Positions 21,867 through 27,480 of a stretch of 64,000 nucleotides of DNA are shown one piece after another. The position numbers and the translations under genes are program-made. The stretch lies in contig JASLOA010000009.1 of NCBI GenBank assembly GCA_030745755.1, forward strand, positions 1 to 64,000. Direction: 5' to 3'. The first letter of the stretch is position 1. Every line of letters starts with the position of its first letter. The DNA comes from Kiritimatiellia bacterium (GTDB lineage: Bacteria; Verrucomicrobiota; Kiritimatiellia; UBA8416; JABMPJ01). The notes below the pieces were generated by a model. That model had not been told where the DNA came from. It did no database searches and was given only the letters and a program-made list of their open reading frames with translations.

Positions 21867-22538
21867 CTATTCGGCCAGCTCCAAATCGAATACACGCGCC
21901 GCATGCTTGATTATGAGAAGGGCAAGCTGTTCAGGCGTTGCATCCGGGGCGTGCTCATTCAAGCCCGTCACCGAACCCGAGGGCCGCGCTGCTTCGACGA
22001 GTTTGCAGAACAGCTTCTCGTGGTCGACAAAGACGATGCTGCCGTGCTGAAAGACGCCTTTGCGGGTGACCCGCTGCGCGTTGCCGGCCACTTTACGCCC
22101 ATCGATCACGATCTCATTGGCCGCCTGGCCGTGGAAGCAAATGTTCGTACTGGGCATGCGCCATTTCGCGTTCTCGCACTCCTGCGCCTCCACACCCAGC
22201 TCTCGAAATGAGGAGAGGAAGATCTCTTTGAATCGTTCGCGCAGATCAATCGCCCGGTAGTGAGGCGGCAGCCGTGAGGGCCAGAAGAAGGCGTAGGTCA
22301 GATCGTCCTTGTGCAGCACCGCGGCACCACCGGTGAATCGCTTGACCGCCACGGTACCGTGTTCGCGACAGGCCTCAATACTGAGCACATCAATCTGCTG
22401 GGAGCAACCCAGTGAAATGGCTTCCGGCTTCCATGTATAGAGCCGCAGGCACGGCATGAGCGAATCCTGCATGGCTTCGTCACGCGCCATGTTCTCGGTC
22501 GCCGGAGAGTCGGGTGTATAGGTGGCTTCTAAGTGCAT
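21867..22538 (-). CDS. Lipoate-protein ligase A / octanoyltransferase family
   Basis: A 223-residue member of the BPL/LplA/LipB fold, which attaches lipoate or octanoate to lipoyl domains. The characteristic RFTGGAAVLHKDDLTYAF segment matches the RxxGGGAVxHD motif of the family, and KVAGNAQRVTRKG includes the active-site Lys environment. The C-terminal accessory domain of E. coli LplA is absent, as in LipM and small LplA proteins. ATG 22538 follows a GTG directly; ribosome site weak. The gene stands alone, so whether it scavenges lipoate or transfers octanoate is open. Confidence 0.85.
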   Translation of the reverse strand: MHLEATYTPDSPATENMARDEAMQDSLMPCLRLYTWKPEAISLGCSQQIDVLSIEACREHGTVAVKRFTGGAAVLHKDDLTYAFFWPSRLPPHYRAIDLRERFKEIFLSSFRELGVEAQECENAKWRMPSTNICFHGQAANEIVIDGRKVAGNAQRVTRKGVFQHGSIVFVDHEKLFCKLVEAARPSGSVTGLNEHAPDATPEQLALLIIKHAARVFDLELAE

Positions 22539-22585
22539 CACCGATGTATTTTACAGGAGTGCTCGCAAGGACACAATACCGGGTT

Positions 22586-23236
22586 TCAACCTGGCCGCCT
22601 GAGCGTGTGGCCTTTCCACTCGATCGTGCCTTCTGCGCTGAGGCGTGTGATGAGACGCGAGAGGGATTCGGGGGTGGTGCTGATGGCCGCCGCGAGGTCT
22701 TTCTTCGAGATATCCAGCTCGACCTCGGCTGCGGCGCCATAGTGCTCATCGAGAAAGGCGAAGAAGCGGGTCTCGACATCGTGCAGTGTCAGCTCCTGGA
22801 TGCGCCCCGTGAGATAACGCATCTTGGTCATGAGATGCCCGATGAAACCGGCCCGGAAATCGGGATCGCCCAGCAGACGGTGAATCTCCGTGCGCGGCAA
22901 AACGACAAGCCGTGTTCCGGCGATACATTCGGCCGTCACGGGATAGCGATCACTCTCAAACAGGATCACCTCGGCGAATACCCCGTTGGCGCCAATGACC
23001 CTGATCGTCACGTCGCGCCCGTCAGGCGTGGTTCGATAGAGCTGAACCTTGCCTTCCACAACCAGGTACATTGACGAGCCCTGCTGCCCTTCATGAAAGA
23101 TCACTTCACGCCGGGCATGATCTTCAACCCGGGCCACCTGCGACAGGGCACGGTAACCGGCGTCCGGCAATCCCTCAAAGAACTCCGCCCGCCTTAAGAG
23201 CGTCTCAACCTGTAACTGGTGTGCATTCATAGGCAT
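22586..23236 (-). CDS. Crp/Fnr-family regulator lacking Fe-S cysteines
   Basis: A 216-residue regulator with an N-terminal cyclic-nucleotide-binding-like beta barrel and a C-terminal winged helix. The recognition helix TPESLSRLITRL has the E-xx-S-R pattern that in FNR contacts TTGAT half-sites. Only one Cys is present, so there is no FNR-type [4Fe-4S] cluster; this resembles Dnr/HcpR regulators that sense NO, possibly through haem. It is divergent from hcp, with a perfect TTGAT-N4-ATCAA site between. ATG 23236 has AGGA before it; ATG 23230 is an alternative. A longer frame to 23749 overlaps hcp and is rejected. Confidence 0.88.
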   Translation of the reverse strand: MPMNAHQLQVETLLRRAEFFEGLPDAGYRALSQVARVEDHARREVIFHEGQQGSSMYLVVEGKVQLYRTTPDGRDVTIRVIGANGVFAEVILFESDRYPVTAECIAGTRLVVLPRTEIHRLLGDPDFRAGFIGHLMTKMRYLTGRIQELTLHDVETRFFAFLDEHYGAAAEVELDISKKDLAAAISTTPESLSRLITRLSAEGTIEWKGHTLRRPG

Positions 23237-23285
23237 TAGTCCTGAGAAGCCTGACCGCGGTCTATACCCATTTCTTCTCCGTTTC

Positions 23286-23327
23286 TTGATCCATATCAAG
23301 GAACCGAAATTCCATGCGTGTGATGAT
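23286..23327 (+). promoter_or_regulatory. FNR-type binding site and class II promoter for hcp
   Basis: TTGATCCATATCAA at 23286-23299 is a perfect TTGAT-N4-ATCAA palindrome. A TGT-GATGAT extended -10 lies at 23319-23327, so the site is centred near -41.5 of a start at about 23334, the class II FNR spacing. The hcp start at 23372 follows. The divergent regulator begins 50 bases away on the other side and may also be controlled from here. This is prediction from sequence and spacing. Confidence 0.75.
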
Positions 23328-23371
23328 ACGCCCTTCATTGAACGGGAACCAACCCAAATAGGAGAGACCAG

Positions 23372-25021
23372 ATGAGTATGTTTTGCTACCAGTGTGAACA
23401 GACGGCCAAAGGCGAAGGATGCACGAAGTTCGGGGTGTGCGGGAAAGATCCCGACGTAGCCGCACTCCAGGATCTCCTGGTCCACGCGGCAAAGGGCATC
23501 TCGATGTACGCCTACCGCGCCGGTAAGCTCGGGCTTCACGATCGCGACATCGATCTCTTTGTCGTCGAGGCCCTCTTCACCACGGTGACCAACGTGAACT
23601 TCGACGCAGATCGTCTGGAGGCACTCCTGCGTCGCGCCTCTGAACTCAAGGAGCAGGCCCGCGCACTCTACCATTATGCCGCCATCAAGGCCGGCAACAT
23701 CGAAGAGGAGCTGTCCGGTCCCGCCATGTGGCAGCCGGCGTCTGATCACGAGGGCCTACTGACCGAGGGACGCGAGGTCGGTATCCTGGTCCGTCGCGAG
23801 CAGCTGGGCGAGGACATCACGGCGCTGGTCGAACTCCTCACCTACGGACTCAAGGGCACTGCAGCCTATGCGGACCATGCCGCTATCCTCGGCAAGGAAG
23901 ATCGGGGCGTCTACATGTTCTTCCACGAGGCCCTCGACTTCCTGACGAAGGAGAACCTGGGCGTTGAAGACCTACTGGGCATGAACCTGCGCTGTGGTGA
24001 GGTCAACCTGAAGGTCATGGAGCTACTCGACCACGCCAACACGGGCGCCTACGGCCACCCCGAACCCACCGCCGTTCGCGTCGAACCGGTCAAGGGCAAG
24101 GCGATCCTCGTTTCGGGTCACGACCTGAAGGACCTTGCTGAGCTCTTGGAGCAGACCGAGGGCGAAGGAATCAACATCTACACGCACGGCGAGATGCTTC
24201 CCGCCCACGCCTATCCCGAGCTCAAGAAGTACACCCATCTCGCGGGGAACTACGGCGGGGCATGGCAGGACCAGCGGAAAGAATTCGAGGCCTTCCCGGG
24301 CGCGATCCTGATGACGACCAACTGCATCCAGAGTCCACACGACAGCTACAAGGCCCGCATCTTCACGACCGGACTCGTGGCCTGGCCGGGCGTAACCCAC
24401 ATTGAGGGGAACGACTACGCCGCCGTGATTGACGCAGCCCTGGAAGCCGATGGCTTCACGGAAGACGGGTCCGACAAGACCATCACGGTCGGGTTTGCCC
24501 ACAACGCCGTGATGGGCGTGGCCGACACGGTGATCGACGCCGTCAAGGGTGGCGATATTCGCCACTTCTTCCTGATCGGTGGATGCGATGGCGCCAAGAG
24601 CGGACGCAACTACTACACCGAGCTGGCTGAAGCCGTGCCGGAAGATTGCGTCATCCTGACGCTGGCCTGCGGTAAGTTCCGCTTCAACAAGCTCGACTTC
24701 GGTGACATTGGCGGCATCCCGCGCCTGCTGGACTGCGGTCAGTGCAACGACGCCTACTCGGCCATCCAGATCGCGGTTGCCCTGGCCGACGCGTTCGATA
24801 CGGACGTGAACAGCCTGCCGCTCTCGCTGGTGCTCTCCTGGTACGAGCAGAAAGCTGTATGTATTCTGCTTTCGTTGCTCCACCTGGGGATCAAGGACAT
24901 CCGCTTGGGCCCGAGCCTGCCGGCCTTTGTAACACCGGCCGTGCTGCAGGTGCTCGTGGATACGTTCGGCATCAAGCCGATCGGAACGGCTGAGGATGAC
25001 TTGAAAGCCATCCTTGGCTAA
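23372..25021 (+). CDS. hcp: Hybrid cluster protein (hydroxylamine reductase)
   Basis: Hcp, 549 residues, carries a [4Fe-4S] and a hybrid [4Fe-2S-2O] cluster. It was first described as a hydroxylamine reductase and is now regarded mainly as a high-affinity NO reductase. The N-terminal ligands Cys5, Cys8, Cys17 and Cys23 give C-x2-C-x8-C-x5-C, the class I form of strict anaerobes. The middle and C-terminal cysteines (GGCDGAKSGRNYY, LDCGQCND) fit the hybrid-cluster ligands. A GGAG ribosome site precedes the ATG. A ferredoxin gene follows 42 bases later. The FNR-type site upstream suggests induction under anaerobic nitrosative stress. Confidence 0.95.
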   Translation: MSMFCYQCEQTAKGEGCTKFGVCGKDPDVAALQDLLVHAAKGISMYAYRAGKLGLHDRDIDLFVVEALFTTVTNVNFDADRLEALLRRASELKEQARALYHYAAIKAGNIEEELSGPAMWQPASDHEGLLTEGREVGILVRREQLGEDITALVELLTYGLKGTAAYADHAAILGKEDRGVYMFFHEALDFLTKENLGVEDLLGMNLRCGEVNLKVMELLDHANTGAYGHPEPTAVRVEPVKGKAILVSGHDLKDLAELLEQTEGEGINIYTHGEMLPAHAYPELKKYTHLAGNYGGAWQDQRKEFEAFPGAILMTTNCIQSPHDSYKARIFTTGLVAWPGVTHIEGNDYAAVIDAALEADGFTEDGSDKTITVGFAHNAVMGVADTVIDAVKGGDIRHFFLIGGCDGAKSGRNYYTELAEAVPEDCVILTLACGKFRFNKLDFGDIGGIPRLLDCGQCNDAYSAIQIAVALADAFDTDVNSLPLSLVLSWYEQKAVCILLSLLHLGIKDIRLGPSLPAFVTPAVLQVLVDTFGIKPIGTAEDDLKAILG

Positions 25022-25063: not shown

Positions 25064-25855
25064 ATGAAACGCAAGATTATCAAGATCGATGAAGATCTCT
25101 GCAACGGCTGTGGTAACTGCATCACGGCCTGCGCCGAAGGCGCCCTGGAACTGGTGGATGGCAAAGCGAAAATCGTGAAAGATCTGTTGTGTGACGGGTT
25201 CGGCGACTGCATGGGCGAATGTCCAACCGGGGCCCTGACGATCGAAGAGCGCGATTGCGCCGCCTTTGACCAGCAGGCCGTGGAAGAGCACCTGCTCGAG
25301 AGCAGCGGCCAGGCCGCCGTGGACCGCATGAAGGCTGCAGCAGAACGCCACGTGCCAAAGCCCGAAACACCCCCACCCCTGCCTCACGGTGGCGGGGGGT
25401 GTCCCGGAACACGCATGCGCATGGCCAAGCCGGAAGCAGCCGTGGAACCGACGACGACAGGTGCGGGAGTGCCCGGCCAGGTCATTAAGTCGGACCTGCA
25501 ACAGTGGCCGGTACAGCTACACCTGGTGTCGCCGGGTGCTCCGTTCTTCATGAACAAGGAGCTGGTCGTGCTCAGCACGTGTGCCCCGATCGCTTCGGCC
25601 GATGCGCATTGGCGCTACATTCGCGGGCGCGGCGTGGTGGTGGCCTGCCCGAAACTGGACCGGACGGAACCGTACGTCGGCAAGCTGGCGGCTATATTGC
25701 AGGATAAGACCATTCCGAAGGTTATCTGTCTTCGGATGGAAGTGCCCTGCTGTGGTGGACTGACTCATATTGTTGAGCAGGCGATTGCTGAAAGCGGACG
25801 CACCGACCTGGTCTTTGAAGAGGTCACCGTTGGTGTGGACGGCACGATTCGTTGA
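25064..25855 (+). CDS. 4Fe-4S ferredoxin partner of Hcp, one cluster-cysteine missing
   Basis: A 263-residue iron-sulfur protein. Residues 13-23 hold a full C-x2-C-x2-C-x3-C site. The second site has Cys43, Cys49 and Cys53, but Phe46 replaces the usual second cysteine, so it probably binds a 3Fe cluster or none. A linker rich in Pro, Gly and His follows. The C-terminal half has Cys residues in LSTCAPIASADAHW, VVACPKLD and MEVPCCGG, as in ferredoxins that accompany hcp in anaerobes and supply it with electrons. GGGAG precedes the ATG; co-transcription with hcp is likely. Confidence 0.88.
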   Translation: MKRKIIKIDEDLCNGCGNCITACAEGALELVDGKAKIVKDLLCDGFGDCMGECPTGALTIEERDCAAFDQQAVEEHLLESSGQAAVDRMKAAAERHVPKPETPPPLPHGGGGCPGTRMRMAKPEAAVEPTTTGAGVPGQVIKSDLQQWPVQLHLVSPGAPFFMNKELVVLSTCAPIASADAHWRYIRGRGVVVACPKLDRTEPYVGKLAAILQDKTIPKVICLRMEVPCCGGLTHIVEQAIAESGRTDLVFEEVTVGVDGTIR

Positions 25856-25942: not shown

Positions 25943-27046
25943 ATGATCCATCCCGAGTTTGACCGCCGCCGCTTGCGCGTCCTGCCCCTGTCTGACCGAC
26001 GCAACAAGCTGGAAATCGTGCGTGACCATATTTCCCCCACCGCTGAAGGCGGACCTCTCTCTTCGGAAGCCATCGCAGTTGTGGCCGAGTCGGCCGAGCG
26101 CATTCGAGACGCACGCGAAAATGACAGATCGGTGATCCTGACCTTCGGGGCACACACCATCAAGAATGGGCTGGGGCCGGTACTCATCCATCTCATGGAG
26201 GCCGGATGGGTCACCCACCTGGCGACCAACGGCGCCGGAATCATTCATGACTGGGAATTCGCCTTCCAGGGGCAGACCAGTGAAGATGTGGCCGCCGGCG
26301 TGGAGGCCGGGCAGTTCGGCATCTGGGAAGAAACGGGCCGCACCATCAACCTCGCCCTGCGCGTAGGCGCGTGGGAGAGGCGCGGGTACGGTGAGTCCAT
26401 CGGCGCCCTCATTCAGAATGACGGTCTGACGATTCCGTCTATAGAAGAGCTGTGCAACGCTTCAGCGGCGGTGCTCGATGACCCGGCGCGGGCAGCGGCA
26501 GCGGCGGACCTCTTGGGTGCTGTGCGCGACTTTGATCTCGCGCCGGGCCGCATGGCCGTCCCGCACCCATTCAAGCAATACAGCCCACAAGCGGCGGCAT
26601 TCCAGATGGGAATTCCATTCACCGGCCACCCCATGTTCGGCCATGACATCATCTATAACCACCCCATGAACCATGGCCCCGCCATCGGCCGTACTGCCGA
26701 GCGCGATTACCTCCGTTTCGCCGACTCCGTCACGCGTATTGACGGCGGCGTCTATCTGTCGGTCGGCTCCGCCGTTATGTCACCCATGATATTCGAGAAA
26801 GCCCTATCCATGGCGCAAAACGTTGAGCGACAGTCAGGTGGCCATATCAAGAATCACTTCATCAGCGTGGTGGACCTGGCTGAGACGACCTGGGATTGGG
26901 AGGCCGATGGCGAACCCCCGATGGACAATGCGGCCTATTATCTGCGATACTGCAAGACCTTTAACAGAATGGGAGGCACCATGCGGTATGCCTCCGCGGA
27001 CAATAGGGATTTTCTACTGTCACTTTGTAGAGCCCTGGAAGAGTGA
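25943..27046 (+). CDS. Conserved protein of the deoxyhypusine-synthase-like type
   Basis: A 367-residue cytoplasmic protein. It contains GAHTIKNGLGPVLI, ATNGAGIIHDWEFAFQG, TSEDVAAGVE and, later, GGVYLSVGSAVMSP, which recall a bacterial family often labelled deoxyhypusine synthase-like. The label is from memory and no eIF5A-type substrate is expected in bacteria, so the function is open; a nucleotide- or sugar-binding Rossmann role fits the glycine motifs. The ATG at 25943 follows GGAG inside the hairpin. The next gene starts 11 bases after the TGA, so the two are probably one operon. Confidence 0.7.
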   Translation: MIHPEFDRRRLRVLPLSDRRNKLEIVRDHISPTAEGGPLSSEAIAVVAESAERIRDARENDRSVILTFGAHTIKNGLGPVLIHLMEAGWVTHLATNGAGIIHDWEFAFQGQTSEDVAAGVEAGQFGIWEETGRTINLALRVGAWERRGYGESIGALIQNDGLTIPSIEELCNASAAVLDDPARAAAAADLLGAVRDFDLAPGRMAVPHPFKQYSPQAAAFQMGIPFTGHPMFGHDIIYNHPMNHGPAIGRTAERDYLRFADSVTRIDGGVYLSVGSAVMSPMIFEKALSMAQNVERQSGGHIKNHFISVVDLAETTWDWEADGEPPMDNAAYYLRYCKTFNRMGGTMRYASADNRDFLLSLCRALEE

Positions 27047-27057
27047 GGAGAGAGTCA

Positions 27058-27480
27058 ATGAACGGCAACATGAACAAGATCTACCTGTGTGGCCCCATCA
27101 TGGATGAGCATGAGGGTGCCGCGCGTGAATGGCGTCAACTGGCCCACGAAACACTGGGGCGTCGTTTTCTGATGCTCGACCCGATGCGTCGCAACTTCAA
27201 GGACCGTGAAGTCGATAGTGCCAACGAGATCGTGGAGTTCGACCTACAGGATGTCCGCGACGCCGACATTGTCCTGGTCAACTACAACAAACCGTCGATC
27301 GGAACGGCGATGGAAGTGTTCTATGCCTCGCACGACCTGCAGAAGTTCGTCGTTGGATTCAGTCCTTTCGAGTTCAAGGAGTGCAATCCATGGATGGTGA
27401 AATTCTGCACCAAGATCCTGCCGAGCCTCGAAGAGTCTATGGCCTACATCCTCGAGCATTTCGTCCAGCAGGCGTACTGA
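27058..27480 (+). CDS. Nucleoside 2-deoxyribosyltransferase-like protein
   Basis: A 140-residue protein with the small Rossmann-like fold of this family. Visible signs are the N-terminal YLCGPIMDEHEGAAREWR, the VRDADIVLVNY strand with two acidic residues, and GTAMEV with Glu86, the position of the glycosyl-enzyme nucleophile in deoxyribosyltransferases. It could cleave or swap bases on nucleosides or on a modified nucleotide. A GGAG ribosome site stands before ATG 27058. It follows the deoxyhypusine-synthase-like gene by 11 bases and a terminator-like hairpin begins directly after it. Confidence 0.8.
   Translation: MNGNMNKIYLCGPIMDEHEGAAREWRQLAHETLGRRFLMLDPMRRNFKDREVDSANEIVEFDLQDVRDADIVLVNYNKPSIGTAMEVFYASHDLQKFVVGFSPFEFKECNPWMVKFCTKILPSLEESMAYILEHFVQQAY

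Follow-up and report, generated by a model that had tools for sequence, protein, structure and literature searches.

A predicted HcpR-type regulator, operator and hcp gene in a Kiritimatiellia bacterium

Introduction

In the genome of a Kiritimatiellia bacterium, a palindrome of FNR type separates the gene of a Crp/Fnr regulator with a single cysteine from hcp, the gene of a hybrid cluster protein. Which protein would act at this site, in response to what signal, and is the arrangement a new one? We addressed these questions by analyzing a contig stretch of 64 kb that holds the locus (hereafter, the window), the host assembly (3.07 Mb in 63 contigs, 92% complete), genomes of the same order, and relatives of the regulator in other named genomes. 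HcpR, a member of the Crp/Fnr family, regulates hcp and frdX (PMC1274295, PMC545781), and we consider it very probable from the comparisons below that the regulator, box and hcp form a nitrosative-stress switch of the HcpR(1) type.

The hcp locus and its promoter

The features of the locus are as follows.

22586–23230, minus strand: predicted HcpR(1)-type Crp/Fnr regulator, 214 aa, recognition helix TPESLSR, one cysteine (open reading frame, Pfam, alignments)
23251–23264, no strand assigned: second, imperfect palindrome CTGACCGCGGTCTA (the congener locus L041 has TTAACCGCGGTTAA at the same offset)
23286–23299, no strand assigned: operator TTGAT-CCAT-ATCAA, predicted binding site of the regulator (pattern scans, conservation in homologues and in the congener)
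23319–23327, plus strand: putative extended −10 element TGT-GATGAT of the hcp promoter (four of six consensus bases; spacing kept over 35 sites)
23372–25021, plus strand: hcp, hybrid cluster protein/hydroxylamine reductase family, 549 aa (Prismane, hydroxylamine reductase equivalog)
25064–25855, plus strand: frdX-like ferredoxin-domain protein, 263 aa (domain content, position)

The hcp product matches the Prismane profile (E 2.4e-171) and, with 831 bits where the cut-off is 367, the hydroxylamine reductase equivalog. After a gap of 42 bp it is followed by a gene that we call frdX-like from its domain content and position and that is probably co-transcribed with hcp. Beyond this pair, positions 25952–27480 encode a GSU2086-family protein, weakly deoxyhypusine-synthase-like, and then a nucleoside 2-deoxyribosyltransferase-like protein; on the other side, the regulator gene is followed immediately, on its own strand, by a lipoate-protein-ligase-like gene (21867–22541). 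An Rfam search of the window gave no matches.

The box between the regulator and hcp, TTGATCCATATCAA at 23286–23299, has no mismatches, as a preliminary description of this DNA had stated, and is the sole perfect match within the window, where up to one mismatch yields three matches against 1.14 expected from shuffling. No complete sigma-70 promoter was found in 23200–23400. The box centre (23292.5) lies 41.5 bp upstream of the inferred transcription start near 23334. When 35 sites were aligned, a set that includes near-duplicates such as the window and L041 or L087 and L088, the match to TATAAT peaked 29 bp from the centre of the box in the direction of hcp/frdX (z 4.5), with a mean of 3.37 of 6 bases against an average of 1.63 over offsets; the regulator side had no comparable isolated −10 peak (largest z 2.8, at offset 15). 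This peak corresponds to a box position of −41.5, as is typical of class II activation by CRP or FNR, and the class II distance from an extended −10 element that had been claimed for this locus thus recurs as a spacing common to the 35 sites.

The box in the host genome

Perfect TTGAT-N4-ATCAA occurs at two places in the assembly, the second lying within tsaD. The relaxed form TTGAY-N4-RTCAA occurs at four, the two extra ones within a GH31 gene and within a 457-aa open reading frame without a Pfam hit, so that of the four only the hcp promoter box lies between genes. The tsaD site is probably a chance match, which lends some weight to reading the box before hcp in the same way, but for the latter we regard chance as a negligible explanation: a 25-base core, GTTTCTTGATCCATATCAAGGAACC, is identical in the congener though the surrounding 142-bp stretch is 73% identical (104/142), and the finding of a perfect site in 28 of 30 homologous regions, described below, contradicts it.

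Scans of the assembly for both box forms gave no further intergenic site, and the retrieved nrfA locus has no match better than 8/10, which was taken as background. The preliminary description had made further sites beside nitrosative-stress genes a test of its reading. The host has none, but homologous genomes repeat the arrangement, which argues for a one-target regulon rather than a false site, and one target is what the host regulon looks like from these scans. The second palindrome, 35 bp from the box centre to centre and just before the regulator start, has flanks that have diverged in the congener; it may serve as a second, weak operator through which the regulator controls its own gene.

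Recurrence of the arrangement in several phyla

Relatives of the regulator were collected from named genomes by a scan whose seeds were protein patterns, including one from the recognition helix, and which made no use of the DNA site. The best 80 of 129 relatives came from Kiritimatiellota, Spirochaetes, KSB1, Acidobacteria, Fibrobacteres, Krumholzibacteria, Deltaproteobacteria and others. Thirty of these 80 (hereafter, linked loci) have a divergent hcp or frdX-like gene whose start is no more than 400 bp from the regulator; L041, L056 and L063 among them are the loci that appear in the order search below as L010, L012 and L013. The closest regulator outside the host genome, 89% identical, is that of L010 (genome G008, same genus); L041 is a contig of a Kiritimatiellia MAG.

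A perfect TTGAY-N4-RTCAA site is present in 28 of the 30 linked loci, against a chance rate of 0.0028 per region (15,000 Markov shuffles), and the other two carry near matches (L085, 9/10; L097, 8/10). The 28 sites comprise 13 TTGAC/GTCAA, nine TTGAT/ATCAA and six mixed palindromes. Among the other 50 relatives, four are cut upstream by a contig end and 46 have no divergent hcp/frdX-like neighbour by our criterion, and a perfect site occurs in eight of those 46. The claim that a cluster-free regulator has hcp as its target through an FNR-like box is borne out to the extent that regulator, box and hcp recur together in homologues of several phyla.

Within the order, a regulator search of 31 genomes gave close orthologues outside the genus that were 40–48% identical, and 17 regulator loci were examined for the box. 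In ten of the 17, namely L009 (the window), L010, L012, L013, L015, L016, L017, L018, L021 and L025, a perfect TTGAY-N4-RTCAA site lies close to where the regulator gene begins, and seven have none (L011, L014, L019, L020, L022, L023 and L024), L020, L022 and L023 offering fewer than 210 upstream bases to the scan. The hcp search, in 30 order genomes, gave 22 matches, 19 of them with upstream sequence, and a perfect site precedes nine of the 19. In G009, G010, G025 and G029 the box stands before hcp and no regulator lies in the fetched locus, the regulator of G025 being a distant homologue. The ten hcp upstream regions that lack the box include those of G021 and G022, where the box precedes an frdX-like gene that itself stands before hcp; those of five genomes without a real regulator orthologue (G001, G003, G004, G011 and G030); two that belong to distant second paralogues (G010 and G024); and that of G026, whose genome has a distant regulator homologue only. 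Among the order genomes, hcp is present in all ten with a close regulator orthologue (E 7.2e-43 or better) and in nine of the remaining 20 (Fisher p 0.004).

These distributions bear on the possibility that a different Crp/Fnr protein, for example an oxygen-sensing FNR, binds the box and that the regulator next to it has another target. In favour of this, the box is identical to the classical FNR consensus quoted in PMC1274295, and the host genome holds four weaker HTH_Crp_2 matches; all four, however, fall below the family cut-off, which only the adjacent regulator passes. The box lies between this regulator family and hcp/frdX in 28 of 30 loci from many phyla, and in order genomes without the regulator hcp is found without the box. 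We therefore consider binding by another protein very improbable and retain the adjacent regulator as the predicted ligand of the box.

A second, more distant Crp/Fnr clade (L021, L025 and L106–L108) also has upstream TTGAY-N4-RTCAA sites, and frdX-like or hcp genes adjoin the regulator in L021, L025 and L107, so that at least two regulator clades share box and target.

The regulator protein

The regulator reads from an ATG at 23228–23230 to a stop at 22586 and contains cNMP_binding and HTH_Crp_2 domains above the Pfam cut-offs; an NCBIfam search gave no family above its cut-off. Its predicted structure has the CRP/FNR fold, and a structure search yielded only this general fold. A plasmid search returned no HcpR reference and no match that reached 60% identity.

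Alignment to E. coli FNR (18% identity) upheld what had been said of the protein, namely an E-xx-S-R motif, one cysteine and no FNR cluster. The predicted contacts of the recognition helix, P187-E188-x-x-S191-R192, include E188, S191 and R192 aligned with E209, S212 and R213 of FNR, which shares the box, and a threonine precedes the contact pair in both proteins; P187, E188, S191 and R192 are each present in 30 of 30 linked homologues. The FNR cluster ligands C20, C23, C29 and C122, in contrast, align with Q, T, E and V, and membership in FNR was rejected on these four [4Fe-4S] cysteines. The one cysteine of the regulator, C102, is not conserved, which counts against an iron-sulfur cluster. 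In CRP, an Arg-Ser pair serves as cAMP ligand. Tyr-Pro occupies those positions here, as in nearly all linked homologues, and both CRP membership and cAMP as effector were rejected.

Relation to known HcpR and DNR systems

Published features of HcpR1, on which the assignment rests, the tree being built without authentic HcpR1 sequences, are matched closely. The protein has the Crp/Fnr domain architecture and lacks the FNR-type cysteine cluster, and its gene is co-localised with hcp and an frdX-like gene. Ser or Pro at position 180 with Glu at 181, a pair tied to an FNR-like HcpR box (PMC1274295, PMC545781), corresponds to P187 and E188, which all 30 linked homologues have. The operator before hcp/frdX is of the form TTGAY-N4-RTCAA, with T/A at the inner positions in the window, so that the box reads TTGAT rather than the TTGAC of the HcpR1 consensus, given for delta-proteobacteria other than Desulfovibrio and for cyanobacteria as wyTTGACnnnnGTCAArw / TTGACnnnnGTCAA (PMC1274295). 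The Desulfuromonas hcp3 site, tcTTGAtCTgGaTCAAAT or TTGAT-CTGG-ATCAA (PMC545781, Table 10), is the same palindrome with a different spacer. In Anabaena the regulator gene is divergent from hcp (PMC1274295, PMC545781), and divergent hcpR–hcp pairs and the missing FNR cysteine motif were published already in 2005 (PMC1274295). In our tree, the clade of the window regulator includes homologues from delta-proteobacterial MAGs that have the same box.

Other assignments fit less well. DNR of Pseudomonas shares the P-E-x-x-S-R helix and has the box TTGATnnnnATCAA (PMC1274295), and DNR 3dkw is, after one multi-domain chain, the best full-length solved structure by profile (E 1.8e-40); but it is 24% identical to the regulator, its known targets are denitrification genes, and DNR, represented by one sequence (3dkw residues 13–221), lies outside the window clade on a branch with support 0.999. 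HcpR2 of Porphyromonas, Clostridium and Thermotoga also controls hcp and has the same fold (9day, Foldseek rank 46), and most members have Pro at 181 and the box GTAACnnnnGTTAC (PMC1274295); Glu188 and the TTGAT box exclude the regulator from that group.

The proposal that HcpR of other lineages uses a different box holds for Desulfovibrio (CRP-like) and for HcpR2 (GTAAC-N4-GTTAC), and not for the delta-proteobacterial and cyanobacterial branch. The suggestion that the wiring is a distinct solution finds no support, since the published delta-proteobacterial HcpR sites have the same form and the Desulfuromonas hcp3 site matches. What differs from HcpR1 is the host group, here Kiritimatiellia and several other phyla: the kind of switch is known and the host group is new. 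In the literature searched, no paper names HcpR together with Kiritimatiellia or Verrucomicrobia, and an HcpR switch may be unreported in this phylum.

Sensing and proposed mechanism

Dnr and other HcpR proteins provide analogies that make sensing of NO through haem plausible. Haem is bound by D. desulfuricans HcpR1 (PMC5701242) and by P. gingivalis HcpR, which senses NO through it and has Met68 as the ligand (PMC12750200). Among the 30 linked sequences there is no invariant His, Cys or Met; Tyr96 is found in all 30 and Met134 in 22.

The host genome has no match to ferrochelatase. A HemC match in a 788-aa open frame has two AhbD-like radical SAM matches within ~5 kb (L143, L146 and L147; G000:C17:61161-66279), one of them scoring 444 bits, below the model cut-off of 500, and haem synthesis in the host is probably siroheme-dependent. 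With an AhbD-like match near HemC, the absence of haem cannot be argued from the missing ferrochelatase. An NrfA-type cytochrome c552 nitrite reductase (L144; G000:C18:15725-16975; 404 bits) is a possible internal source of NO. These matches make both a haem supply and NO from nitrite reduction plausible.

Instead of activating hcp in response to NO, the regulator might repress it, or might govern it as a sensor of redox state or of something else. The lack of an invariant His or Cys would suit such a role, and for HcpR2 of D. desulfuricans a repressor model has been put forward in which NO damages a cluster (PMC5701242). We judge it unlikely here: a box at −41.5 without a complete sigma-70 promoter fits activation, and the single non-conserved cysteine argues against an iron-sulfur cluster.

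In the activator model that we favour, the regulator would be a Crp/Fnr dimer without an iron-sulfur cluster that senses NO or a related signal and then binds TTGAT-CCAT-ATCAA through E188, S191 and R192. From −41.5 it would recruit RNA polymerase to an extended −10 promoter that has no good −35 element, switching on hcp and, as a predicted operon, the frdX-like ferredoxin gene. Hcp would remove NO, perhaps with electrons from the frdX-like ferredoxin.

Residue 186 and the fifth base of the half-site

The residue before P187, T186, is at the position of CRP Ser179 (mature numbering) and is usually Thr or Ile among the homologues; FNR has Thr and DNR has Gln there. We compared it with the box in 46 distinct regulator–site pairs with a perfect site, two of which (Asn or Ser) were excluded from the test. 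Of the 18 Ile pairs, 16 have TTGAC/GTCAA and two have mixed sites, whereas the 26 Thr pairs comprise 14 with TTGAT/ATCAA, seven mixed and five with TTGAC/GTCAA; by half-site, TTGAC accounts for 34 of 36 with Ile and TTGAT for 35 of 52 with Thr. For symmetric sites the association has a Fisher p of 9.7e-6 on raw counts that ignore kinship. On the tree there are only five independent Thr/Ile contrasts: four in agreement, one tied and none in opposition (sign test p 0.06). The same result came from a tree for which the recognition region had been left out. The covariation, strong in raw counts and weak after kinship, is a lead that may be new, and we suggest only tentatively that specificity in HcpR-like regulators has a third determinant in residue 186, with Thr admitting TTGAT and Ile demanding TTGAC.

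Implications

These findings extend the published prediction of an HcpR–hcp/frdX regulon to Kiritimatiellia and to MAGs of Acidobacteria, Fibrobacteres, KSB1, Krumholzibacteria and Spirochaetes. The fixed class II spacing would make nitrosative-stress control readable from sequence in little-studied anaerobes, and a perfect FNR box implies neither an FNR protein nor control by oxygen. If the Thr/Ile lead is true, it would sharpen the prediction of boxes for Crp/Fnr regulators.
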